Source: Prauserella shujinwangii (GTDB lineage: Bacteria > Actinomycetota > Actinomycetes > Mycobacteriales > Pseudonocardiaceae). From it: a DNA stretch of 64,000 nucleotides. This document shows, piece after piece, positions 38,805 to 44,413 of the stretch. Position 1 is the stretch's first letter, and every line of letters begins with the position of its first letter. The stretch covers positions 1 to 64,000 of the forward strand of contig NZ_PVNH01000015.1 of NCBI RefSeq assembly GCF_003001955.1, in the 5' to 3' direction. A program made the translations under genes and the position numbers. The notes under the pieces were generated by a model. That model worked only from the letters and a program-made list of their open reading frames with translations. It was not told where the DNA came from and did no database searches.

Positions 38805-39188
38805 TCAGCGGGTCTCCACCGACTCCCGCAGGGTCTCCGCGGTGCGTTCCGCCTCGGTGACCGCCTCCTGGGGAACCGGATCGATCTCGCGCAGGCCGCG
38901 CACGCCGAGTGCGGCCAGCGCGGCGGCCGTGCCGCTCAGCACCGTCCCGGCCAGCAGCGCGGCCAGCCAGGGCGGCAGGCGCCTGGCCAGCGGCAGCACC
39001 AGCGCGGCGATCAGCGCCGCGCCGCCGTAGAGACCGAGCACGGCCGCACCCGCGAGCAGCCCGCCACCGAAACCGGCCTGCCTGGCCTTCGCCCTGGTCT
39101 CGCCGATCGCGAGCCGCAGCTCGTCCCGGACCAGCCTGCCCACCTGTTCGGGCAGCTCGTTCACCGCGCTCCGTTGCCTGCCGGCCAT
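38805..39188 (-). CDS. Actinobacterial holin-X/phage-holin-III-like membrane protein
   Basis: 127 residues. Two hydrophobic helices (GGGLLAGAAVLGLYGGAALIAALVLPLA and LAALLAGTVLSGTAAALAALGV) with an N-terminal amphipathic stretch QVGRLVRDELRLAIGETRAKA that is diagnostic of this Phage_holin_3_6 family. Despite the name these are chromosomal proteins of unknown role. The gene overlaps the nrfD-like 3' end by 28 bp, so it is translated from the same transcript, between the formate dehydrogenase and the oxidase genes. Confidence 0.75.
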   Translation of the reverse strand: MAGRQRSAVNELPEQVGRLVRDELRLAIGETRAKARQAGFGGGLLAGAAVLGLYGGAALIAALVLPLARRLPPWLAALLAGTVLSGTAAALAALGVRGLREIDPVPQEAVTEAERTAETLRESVETR

Positions 39189-40195
39189 CCGTCGCCTCCG
39201 CGTTCGCGTTCCCGTAGCCGTTCACGCTGGGGAACGATCGTGTACTTGGGGTCCTCCGCCGACACCTTGCCCGCGTCGAAGATGCCCCATTTGGACAGTG
39301 CCGACGCGGCGAGCAGCCCGGCTCCGGACAGCGCGCGGGCGACCCGGCTGCGCCTGCCCAGCGTCGCGCCGGCCACCCCGGCGACGGCCAGCGCCTCCCC
39401 GGCCCTGACCATGCCGCCCGGCTTGCCGGCGCGGTAGGGCTCGGCGACCATCCCGAGCCGCCGCTCCATCCGCCGGAACGCGGCCAGTTCGAGCACGGTG
39501 CCGAAGAGCGCGAGGTTGCGGGCCGGGCCTGCCTCCCGGTCCGGCGCGGCCAGCAGACCCAGCCCGCCCGCACCGACGGCGGCCGATCCGGTGAACACGT
39601 ACGGCAGTTCCCGGTGCCCGTCGTGCCAGGCCGGCACCGCGGTGTCGCTGACAAGGGCGGCGGTGTACGCCGCCACGGCGGGCCCGGTCAGGGCGGCGCC
39701 CGCCGTGGCGAGCGCGCCGATCCTCGGCAGCCTGCCCGTCACGGCCGACAGCGCCGCCGCGCCCGCGCACGGGCCGTAGGCGGTGAGCAGCCAGGAGCCC
39801 ATGTTCATCGGCGAGGTCGGCTTGAACACCCTGAGCATGTTGAGGAAGCGCGCGGGGCGGCCCAGGTCGTGGATCAGCGCGCCCAGCGACACCGTCACCG
39901 CGCCGAACGCCCCGGTCTTGGCGGCGACCGCAAGGCGGTTCCGCCCGGTCGCGTGCGCACCAGCGCCGAGCACCGAGGAGGCGCCCGCGACGCCGCCGAG
40001 GAAGAGGTAGCCGGGGACGTCCGGCGACTTCCACACCGGGCCGTTGAGAACCGGCTTGCCGTAGTAGGAGGTGAACTCGGTGTCCGGGACGACCGGTTGC
40101 TCACCCTTGCGCTTGCGTCCGGTGTGAACTCCGGTCATCGCCTCCCGAGCGGGGCGCGAGTCGAGGCTGCCGTGTTCGGCGTCCTGGCCTTTCAT
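39161..40195 (-). CDS. nrfD: NrfD-type membrane subunit of formate dehydrogenase
   Basis: 344 residues, eight or so hydrophobic helices. FTSYYGKPVLNGPVWKSPDVPGYLFLGGVAGASS is the conserved NrfD/PsrC entrance, and LIHDLGRPARFLNMLRVFKPTSPMNMGSW is the family's quinone-site region with the invariant His-Asp and Arg. It replaces the b-type FdnI/FdoI gamma subunit, so electrons from the Fe-S subunit would reach menaquinone without haem b. ATG at 40195 is two bases after the fdhB stop codon. Confidence 0.88.
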   Translation of the reverse strand: MKGQDAEHGSLDSRPAREAMTGVHTGRKRKGEQPVVPDTEFTSYYGKPVLNGPVWKSPDVPGYLFLGGVAGASSVLGAGAHATGRNRLAVAAKTGAFGAVTVSLGALIHDLGRPARFLNMLRVFKPTSPMNMGSWLLTAYGPCAGAAALSAVTGRLPRIGALATAGAALTGPAVAAYTAALVSDTAVPAWHDGHRELPYVFTGSAAVGAGGLGLLAAPDREAGPARNLALFGTVLELAAFRRMERRLGMVAEPYRAGKPGGMVRAGEALAVAGVAGATLGRRSRVARALSGAGLLAASALSKWGIFDAGKVSAEDPKYTIVPQRERLRERERGGDGWPAGNGAR

Positions 40196-40197
40196 GC

Positions 40198-41136
40198 TCA
40201 CCGTCCCTTCCGGGCACCGAGGAAGGCGGCGACCGCGCCCGCGGCCAGGGTCGCCGCGGCGGAGGCCACGTGCCGCCACATCGCGGGCAGGTCCCTGGTG
40301 GTCACCACCGGGTCCGGCGGGAAGCCGTAGACCTCGGGTTCGTCCAGCAGCAGGAAGAACGCGCCGTCCCCGCCGACGCCGTCGTCCGGGTCGGCCCCGT
40401 ACAGGCGAGCCTCGGGGACCCCGGCCTCGTGCAGCTGCTCGACCCGCCGCCCGGCCCGCTCCCGCAGCTCGTCGAGTGGTCCGAACTGGATGGAGTCGGT
40501 GGGGCAAGCCTTGGCACACGCGGGTTCCAGCCCGTCGCCGAGCCGGTCGTAGCACAGCGTGCACTTCCATGCCCTGCCGTCGTCCTTGCGCTGGTCGATC
40601 ACGCCGTAGGGGCAGGCGGGGATGCAGTAGCCGCAGCCGTTGCAGATGTCCTCCTGCACGACGACCGTGCCGAACTCGGTGCGGAACAGCGACCCGGTGG
40701 GGCACACGTCGAGGCACGCGGCGTGCGTGCAGTGCTTGCACACGTCCGACGCCATCAGCCAGCGGAAGTCGTCCCCGGCGCCGGGCGTGGTCGGCGTCAT
40801 GCCCGCCTCCGGCGGCTGGGTCGCCGTGCCGTGCTCGGCCATGGTGAGCACGTCCTGGTCGTGGTGCAGGCCGGGGTCCTGGCGGCCGATGGGCTTGCGC
40901 TGCTCGATGAACGCCACGTGCCGCCACGTGTCGGCGCCGAGGCCGACCGTGTTGTCATAGGACATCCCGGTGAGGTCGAGCCCGTCCTCCGGGACGGCGT
41001 TCCACTCCTTGCAGGCGACCTCGCAGGCCTTGCAGCCGATGCACACGGTGGTGTCGGTGAAGAAACCCATCCGCGGCGGGTGGTCGGCGTAGCCGCTGTC
41101 CCCCGCGGGATCGACGGGCGTGCGCGCGGTCGTCAT
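40198..41136 (-). CDS. Formate dehydrogenase Fe-S (beta) subunit
   Basis: 312 residues. Four [4Fe-4S] clusters are coordinated by Cys groups CIGCKACEVACKEWN, CKHCTHAACLDVCPTG, CNGCGYCIPACPYG and CTLCYDRL...CAKACP, the FdnH/FdoH pattern. An insertion of about 35 residues (IEQRKPIGRQDPGLHHDQDV onward) lies after the first cluster. A C-terminal helix (VASAAATLAAGAVAAFLGAR) anchors it to the membrane. It follows the large subunit gene by one base, carrying electrons to the NrfD subunit. Confidence 0.92.
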   Translation of the reverse strand: MTTARTPVDPAGDSGYADHPPRMGFFTDTTVCIGCKACEVACKEWNAVPEDGLDLTGMSYDNTVGLGADTWRHVAFIEQRKPIGRQDPGLHHDQDVLTMAEHGTATQPPEAGMTPTTPGAGDDFRWLMASDVCKHCTHAACLDVCPTGSLFRTEFGTVVVQEDICNGCGYCIPACPYGVIDQRKDDGRAWKCTLCYDRLGDGLEPACAKACPTDSIQFGPLDELRERAGRRVEQLHEAGVPEARLYGADPDDGVGGDGAFFLLLDEPEVYGFPPDPVVTTRDLPAMWRHVASAAATLAAGAVAAFLGARKGR

Positions 41137-41137
41137 G

Positions 41138-44100
41138 TCACACCTCGGTTCCGGTCTCGTCGGTGATGCCCGCCTCGCGCTGGTAGCGCTCCACCAGCTC
41201 GACCCGCTCCGGTCCCCTCGGGCGGCGTCCCGGCCTGATATCGCACGTCAGAGCCTTGACCTCCTGGATGTGGGTGTTCGGGTCGAGGGCCATCGACGCC
41301 AGCTCGTTCACCGCGTCGCCGGTGCTCAGTCCGTTGGGGCCCCAGTGGTAGGGCACCCCGACCTGGTGCAGCGTGCGGCCCTGCACCCGCAGCGGCGACA
41401 CGCGGTCGGTGACGAGCACCCTGGCCTCGATCGCGGTCCGGGCGGTCACGATCGTCGCCCAGCCGAGGTGCTCGAGCCCGCGCTCGGTCGCCAGCTCGGG
41501 CGAGATCTCGCAGAACAGCTCCGGCTGCAGCTCCGCCAGGTACGGCTGCCACCGGGACATGCCGCCCGCCGTGTGGTGCTCGGTGAGCCGGTACGTGGTG
41601 AGCACGTACGGGAACACGTCGGCGCCCGGCTGCCCGTCGCTGGGCTGGAACCGGTTGTTCTCGTGCCGCAGCAGCTGCCGCACCGGGTTGCGCTGCTGGC
41701 CGTACAGCAGGTTGGCGAACGGGGACTCGTGCGGCTCGTAGTGCGTGGGCAGCGGCCCGTCGGTGAGCCCGGCCGGCACGTACAGCCACGCCTTGCCGTC
41801 GGCCTGCATGATGAACGCGTCCGTGCCGCGCAGCGCGTCCGGCCCCTTGGCGCCCTCCTCCGGCTCGAAGTCCGGCGCCTTGGTCGCCTTGAAGTCCGGG
41901 ATGTCGTGCCCGGTCCACTTCTCCTGCTCGGCGTCCCACCAGACGTACGCCTTGCGCTCGCTCCACGGCTTGCCGTCCGGATCGGCCGAGGCGCGGTTGT
42001 AGAGGATCCGCCGGTTCAGCGGCCAGGCCCACGCCCACTCGCTCGCGACCCAGTTCTGCTCGGTGCCGGGCTTGCGCCGCGCGGCCTGGTTGACGCCCTC
42101 GGCGTACACGCCGCAGTAGATCCAGCACCCGCAGGCGGTGGAGCCGTCGTCCTTGAGCTGCTCGTAGGTGCTCAGTGGCTCCGCGTCGGCGTTCCACCCG
42201 TTGATCTCGGCCAGCACCGCCTCGGCCTCCGGCTCGGCATGGCGGCCCTTCGTCGGGTAGTCCCACGTGAGGTCGAGCACCGGCCGGTCGCGTTCGGCAT
42301 CGGCCTCCTTCCGGGTGCCGTCCCGCGCCGCGGCGGCCAGCTTCTCCCTGATCCTGCGGCCCAGGTGGTAGATGAACCACAGGTCGCTGCGGGCGTCACC
42401 CTCGGGTTCGACCGCCTGGTGGTGCCACTGCAGCAGCCGCTGGGTGTTGGTGAAGCTGCCGTCCTTCTCGGTGTGCGCGGCGGCGGGCAGGAAGAACACC
42501 TCGGTGGCGATGTCCTCGGTGCGCAGCTCGCCGGTCTCGATCTCCGGGCCGTCCTGCCACCAGGTGGCGCTCTCGATGAGGGAGAAGTCCCGCACGACGA
42601 GCCAGTCCAGCGCGGCCATGCCGAGCCGCTGCATCTTGGCGTTGGCCGAGCCCACCGCCGGGTTCTCGCCCATCAGGAAGTAGCCGTTGCACGTGCCGTC
42701 GAGTTGCTCCAGCACGGTCTCGTACGTGCTGTGGCTGCCGGTGAGCCGCGGCAGGTAGTCGAAGCGGAACTCGTTGTCCGGGGTGGCCGCCGGTCCCCAC
42801 CACGCCTTGAGCAGGCTGACCAGGTAGGACTTCATGTTGCCCCAGTAGCCCTTCTGCGCCGACTCCGCCTCGACGAACGTCGCCAGGTCCTCGTTGGTGT
42901 GCGCATGCGGCATCGGGATGTAGCCGGGCAGCAGGTTGAACAGGGTCGGGATGTCGGTCGAGCCCTGGATCGACGCGTGCCCGCGCAGCGCCAGGATCCC
43001 GCCGCCGGGCCTGCCGATGTTGCCCAGCAGTGCCTGCAGGATGCCGGCCGTGCGGATGTACTGGACGCCGACGGTGTGCTGGGTCCAGCCGACCGCGTAG
43101 GCGAAGGCGCTGGTGCGCTCCCGGCCCGAGTTCTCGGTCAGCAGCTCGCACACCTGGAGGAACTTCTCCCTGGGCACCCCGCAGATCTCCTCGACCCGCT
43201 CCGGCGTGTAGCGGGCGAAGTGCCGCTTGAGGATCTGGAACACGCAGCGCGGGTGCTCCAGGGTCTCGTCCGTCCTCGGCTCGGTGCCGATCTCCGCGCC
43301 GCCCGAGCCGTGGGCCTCACCGCGGCCGGACTGGCGCACGCCGTGCCGGGTCCGCTCCGCCCACAGCTGGTCGCGCTTGCCGGACGCGGCCTGCACCTCG
43401 GCGCCCTCGTACTGCCAGGTCGAGACGTCGTAGCTGCGCCGCTCGCGGTCCAGGCCGGAGAACACGCCGTCGAGCTCGTCGGCGCCCGCGAACCGCTCGT
43501 TCACGATCGTCGCCGCGTTCGTGTAGGCGAGCATGTACTCGCGGAAGTACTTCTCGTGCTCCAGGACGTAGTTGATGATCCCGCCGAGGAACGCGATGTC
43601 GCTGCCCGCCCGCAGCGGCACGTGGATGTCGGCCAGTGCGCTGGTGCGGGTGAACCGCGGGTCGACGTGGATGACCTTCGCGCCCCTGGCCTTGGCCTCC
43701 ATCACCCACTGGAACCCGACCGGATGGCACTCGGCCATGTTCGAGCCCTGGATGACGATGCAGTCGGAGTTGGCCAGGTCCTGCTGGAAGGTCGTCGCGC
43801 CGCCGCGGCCGAAGGAGGTCCCCAAACTGGGAACCGTGGAGGAGTGTCAAACGCGGGCCTGGTTCTCGATCTGGACGGCGCCGAGCGCGGTGAACAGCTT
43901 CTTGATGAGGTAGTTCTCCTCGTTGTCCAGCGTCGCCCCGCCCAGGCTGGCGAAGCCGAGCGTGCGCCGGGTGCGGGCGCCGTCGACCTCCCACTGCCAG
44001 CCGCGCTCCCGGCTGGCGATGGTCCGCTCGGCGATCATGTCCATCGCCGTGTCCAGGTCGAGCGGCTCCCACTCGGTGCCGTACGGCCGCCGGTACAGCA

Positions 44101-44413
44101 CCTGGTGCTCGCGGGCGGAACCGGTGGTCAGCTGCAGGCTGGCCGCTCCCTTCGGGCACAGCCTGCCCCGGCTCACCGGTGAGTCCGGGTCACCCTCGAT
44201 CTGGGTGACCTGCTCGCCGGAGACGTAGACGTTCTGCCCGCAGCCGACGGCGCAGTACGGGCAGATCGACTTCACCACCCGGTCCGCCTGGTCCGTGCGT
44301 GGCCGCAACGAGTCGCTGCGGCGGCTCTTGGCGGCCGCGCCCCGTCCGCTGGGATCCTTCTCGGTCCACTGGCGGTAGACGGGCCAACCCTCGATCCACT
44401 GCCGAACACCCAT
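41138..44413 (-). CDS. Selenocysteine formate dehydrogenase large (alpha) subunit
   Basis: 1091 residues with in-frame TGA at 43849-43847 read as selenocysteine 189. The context ENQARV-U-HSSTVPSLGTSFGRGG matches formate dehydrogenases (E. coli FdnG has Sec196). The N-terminal [4Fe-4S] motif is CPYCAVGC...GRLCPKGA. Molybdopterin/bis-MGD binding continues through IQGSNMAECHPVGFQW, IHVDPRFTRTS and the C-terminal GVPYHWGPNGLSTGDAVNEL. The enzyme oxidises formate to CO2. No Tat signal is seen at the N-terminus, so it faces the cytoplasm. Without Sec decoding only a 188-residue fragment would be made. No selA/B/C/D genes are in the window. Confidence 0.92.
43817..43849 (-). promoter_or_regulatory. 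SECIS-like hairpin downstream of the Sec UGA
   Basis: On the mRNA, positions +12 to +30 after the UGA (43835-43817) form a 7-bp stem (GGTTCCC/GGGGACC, one G-U pair) with loop AGTTT. A hairpin starting about 12 bases and with its loop about 19-23 bases after the UGA is where bacterial SECIS elements lie, and the loop has the G-U that SelB recognises. The sequence is inside the coding region. Confidence 0.7.

Follow-up and report, generated by a model that had tools for sequence, protein, structure and literature searches.

A formate dehydrogenase gene of Prauserella shujinwangii with an in-frame UGA codon predicted to encode selenocysteine

In the stretch of 64,000 nucleotides of the Prauserella shujinwangii genome analysed here (contig NZ_PVNH01000015.1, positions 1 to 64,000; hereafter the window), a reading frame for a formate dehydrogenase alpha subunit is interrupted by a stop codon, which raises the question of whether this codon marks a damaged gene, a genuine end of translation or the insertion site of a selenocysteine (Sec). 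The original prediction, which gave no strand, described one gene split by an internal TGA at positions 43847-43849, and this description holds: the gene is read from the minus strand, where the same frame is found on both sides of the stop. From 44413 to 43847 it forms a 188-aa frame with TGA at its end (43849-43847), and it then continues to 41138 with the UGA at codon 189 as the sole internal stop, the terminal stop being also TGA. As had been anticipated for automatic annotation, ORF calling (table 11) yields two truncated pieces, one ORF of 188 aa and another one further downstream, a report that can now be corrected: read through its single UGA, the gene (41138..44413, minus strand) encodes the alpha subunit as a predicted selenoprotein of 1,091 residues with Sec189.

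The identity of this protein and of its interrupted position is well defined. The profile of the actinobacterial formate dehydrogenases in NCBIfam (NF041513) matched the product at 2027.9 bits against a cut-off of 1400, covering profile positions 2-1066 of 1067, and that of the formate dehydrogenase N alpha subunit (TIGR01553) did so at 933.9 bits, above its cut-off. It is the single gene of the NF041513 family in the genome, and it carries TGA; no relative of the alpha subunit was found among the viral contigs searched. The predicted QARV-stop-HSS context of the internal stop is present as ENQARV-UGA-HSSTV, with residues VQIENQARV-U-HSSTVPSLGTSFGR around position 189, and the UGA (43847..43849, minus strand) aligns with the X that stands for Sec in two solved structures, those of FdnG (1kqf) and of the formate dehydrogenase 1h0h, so that it occupies the Sec position of these enzymes as had been proposed.

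Downstream of the UGA the sequence reads CACUCCUCCAC-GGUUCCCAGUUUGGGGACC, where GGUUCCCAGUUUGGGGACC (43817..43835, minus strand) folds into a hairpin of 7-8 bp with a GUU apical loop that spans bases +12 to +30, precisely where a 7-bp hairpin had been foreseen. When the published rules for bacterial SECIS elements (PMC13188914) were applied, the hairpin agreed with them in its GUU loop, its 8 bp, its spacing of 19 nt and an energy of -15.4 kcal/mol for a 50-nt stretch. The fold energy of the stretch that follows the UGA was no better than that of shuffled sequences in this GC-rich DNA (z = 0.23), and it was therefore left out as evidence. Among the Rfam models, SECIS_3 (RF01989) aligned over its full length with 32.8 bits (E = 5.6e-6 on 201 bases), under its gathering score of 63; although under the family cut-off, the hairpin works like SECIS_3. 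SECIS_1 (RF00031) had no match in the genome, nor in any control genome. A genome search with a covariance model for the hairpin region, built from relatives, recovered the window site at 1.3e-14 and revealed no significant second SECIS of the same type in the genome.

A comparison set formed by the window gene and 80 relatives from actinobacterial genomes (L020-L099) showed how codon and hairpin travel together. At the Sec position, 71 of the 81 genes have UGA (the window and 70 relatives), one has UAG (Geodermatophilus, L080) and nine have a Cys codon, and the hairpin, counted as kept when at least six of its eight native pairs are present, persists in 71/72 of the stop-codon genes and in 0/9 of the Cys genes, counts that overstate independence because the relatives share ancestry. 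Within a 38-sequence alignment, 99.6% of the cells at the hairpin pairs do pair, versus 97.1% in shuffled and at most 67.7% in slid controls; one pair occurs as C-G, U-A, U-G and G-C, changes on both sides being seen in only 1/7 pairs. RNAalifold also proposed a lower stem, which we do not claim: its C-G pairs are isolated, hardly vary and in no case change on both sides. The gene of Amycolatopsis alkalitolerans (L043:6559-6624) is the sole stop-codon gene with a broken pair in the 7-bp stem (U-C, columns 24-36).

The codons close to the stop carry a further mark of the stop-codon genes. Third positions hold A/T in 100%, 72%, 100% and 60% of these genes at codons -1, +5, +7 and +9, respectively, over a background of 4.7%, and in 1% at the same positions of the Cys genes. 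Since the hairpin is kept in stop-codon genes only, its pairs surpass the controls and third positions are enriched in A/T, we consider it to be above chance. The Ser codon at +2 is always UCN in stop-codon genes and AGC in the Cys forms. Just before the stop (43850-43852 in the window), the third base is A/U in 72/72 stop-codon genes and in 0/9 Cys genes, the codon being GTT, ATT or ATA. Such codons are seldom used in these genomes, and in the window gene ATT and ATA do not occur at all, while GTT accounts for only three of 63 Val codons. This constraint is not universal, because three proteobacterial UGA relatives have GTC before the stop. A tentative and rather doubtful reading is that the recoding signal of actinobacterial Sec formate dehydrogenases extends upstream of the UGA, in which case it could make termination at UGA/UAG less frequent or aid the positioning of SelB.

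The machinery for Sec had been expected outside the window, and a search for selA, selB, selC and selD, proposed as the test on which the original prediction might fail, recovered all of them, so that the prediction stands. The four genes lie in one cluster on a different contig, C8 (at about 98.5-102.6 kb), with SelB at 98.5-100.3 kb (GTPase and winged-helix domains, 2.5e-80), SelA at 100.2-101.5 kb (8e-129), a tRNA-Sec with anticodon UCA at 101523-101613 (84.5 bits, cut-off 47) and SelD at 101.7-102.6 kb (9e-120), whose N-terminal GGCACK motif, inspected by eye, contains Cys and not Sec. FdhD, which serves in the maturation of formate dehydrogenase, is encoded on contig C6.

Stop codon and machinery were also followed across 32 sampled genomes, 23 of the stop-codon and nine of the Cys type. 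All 23 stop-codon genomes contain a tRNA-Sec above cut-off, and 21 of them a SelA above cut-off, with a SelA fragment in one more. The draft genome of Saccharomonospora halophila (G006, L025) has a UGA gene and a tRNA-Sec with no convincing SelA match, which is probably a gap in the assembly. SelA and tRNA-Sec are both absent from six of the nine Cys-type genomes and both kept in the other three, one of which (G024) also has a UGA copy. The remaining two (G022, L086 and G026, L091) encode only Cys-type formate dehydrogenases, yet keep SelA and a UCA tRNA-Sec, presumably for other selenoproteins. In Geodermatophilus sp. TF02-6 (L080/G019; L158, L159; L144:1501-1596), each of the two formate dehydrogenase copies has UAG as its Sec codon, and the tRNA-Sec of this genome has the anticodon CUA, which led ARAGORN to label it as tRNA-Pyl.

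These observations allow the competing explanations to be weighed. That the gene is a pseudogene, or its TGA a sequencing error, would require the change of a Cys codon (TGC/TGT), which is indeed a single base away from TGA in the Cys forms; such an accident is exceedingly improbable when the same TGA is shared by 71/81 genes and conserved across many independent assemblies, is accompanied by a hairpin that Cys forms lack, and stands in a frame of 1,091 codons with no further stop and in a genome with complete Sec machinery. It could also be argued that the UGA is real but has nothing to do with Sec, either because a near-cognate tRNA (Trp, Cys) reads it or because it acts as a regulated stop that releases a short product, given that Cys forms of the enzyme exist among the relatives and that RF2 is capable of termination. 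That machinery and stop codon occur together across genomes makes this very unlikely, and the Geodermatophilus UAG codon with its matching CUA tRNA-Sec points to Sec as well. Altogether, we are nearly certain that the formate dehydrogenase encoded in the window contains Sec, depends on molybdopterin and belongs to the actinobacterial family NF041513, with the gene order alpha-beta-NrfD and its UGA recoded through the hairpin.

Two neighbouring genes complete this arrangement. Downstream of alpha lies the gene for a beta subunit (40198..41136, minus strand), 4Fe-4S ferredoxin-like and with a probable C-terminal membrane anchor, which matched TIGR01582 at 8.4e-54, below cut-off; it is followed by an NrfD-family membrane subunit (39161..40069, minus strand, start approximate; PF03916, 42.5 bits), a probable quinone-side partner. 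Further along, in the same direction, subunits I and II of cytochrome oxidase are encoded. Inspection by eye of the alpha N-terminus found no hydrophobic twin-arginine (Tat) signal, which makes a cytoplasmic active site probable. The enzyme itself is likely to be attached to the membrane and to act as a formate:quinone oxidoreductase. On this reading, ribosomes arriving at the UGA of codon 189 in Prauserella shujinwangii would find, 12 bases downstream, a hairpin that brings in SelB with Sec-tRNA(Sec), and Sec would be inserted in place of termination, some of which probably takes place alongside. This Sec would be placed at the enzyme's metal site, and the electrons of formate would pass to the Fe-S clusters of beta, then to the NrfD-type subunit and finally to a membrane quinone.

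The complex shares related alpha and beta subunits and the same Sec position with E. coli FdnGHI (1kqf), but its alpha has no visible Tat signal and the membrane subunit is NrfD-like instead of FdnI, the cytochrome b subunit of formate dehydrogenase N; with beta also under the FDH-beta cut-off, the complex falls outside the FdnGHI type. Another parallel is found in the related Actinomycetospora chiangmaiensis, which likewise combines Sec alpha subunits and predicted SECIS elements with SelA/B/D machinery, and where formate accumulates without selenite and is nearly absent with it, the proteome containing Sec formate dehydrogenase subunits, SelA, SelB and SelD (PMC7176365); that organism has three Sec formate dehydrogenases, whereas one gene of the family was found in the Prauserella genome. 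A UAG-Sec formate dehydrogenase in Geodermatophilaceae has already been published, as indicated in PMC5330540, which cites earlier work, and protein family and hairpin are the same as here, although UAG and anticodon CUA are replaced in the window genome by UGA and UCA. The arrangement is that of a known and ordinary actinobacterial selenoprotein gene, not a novel one, and adds one more well-supported case to those described. The natural UGA, UAG and Cys variants of this family allow the requirements of a bacterial SECIS to be tested cleanly by comparison.
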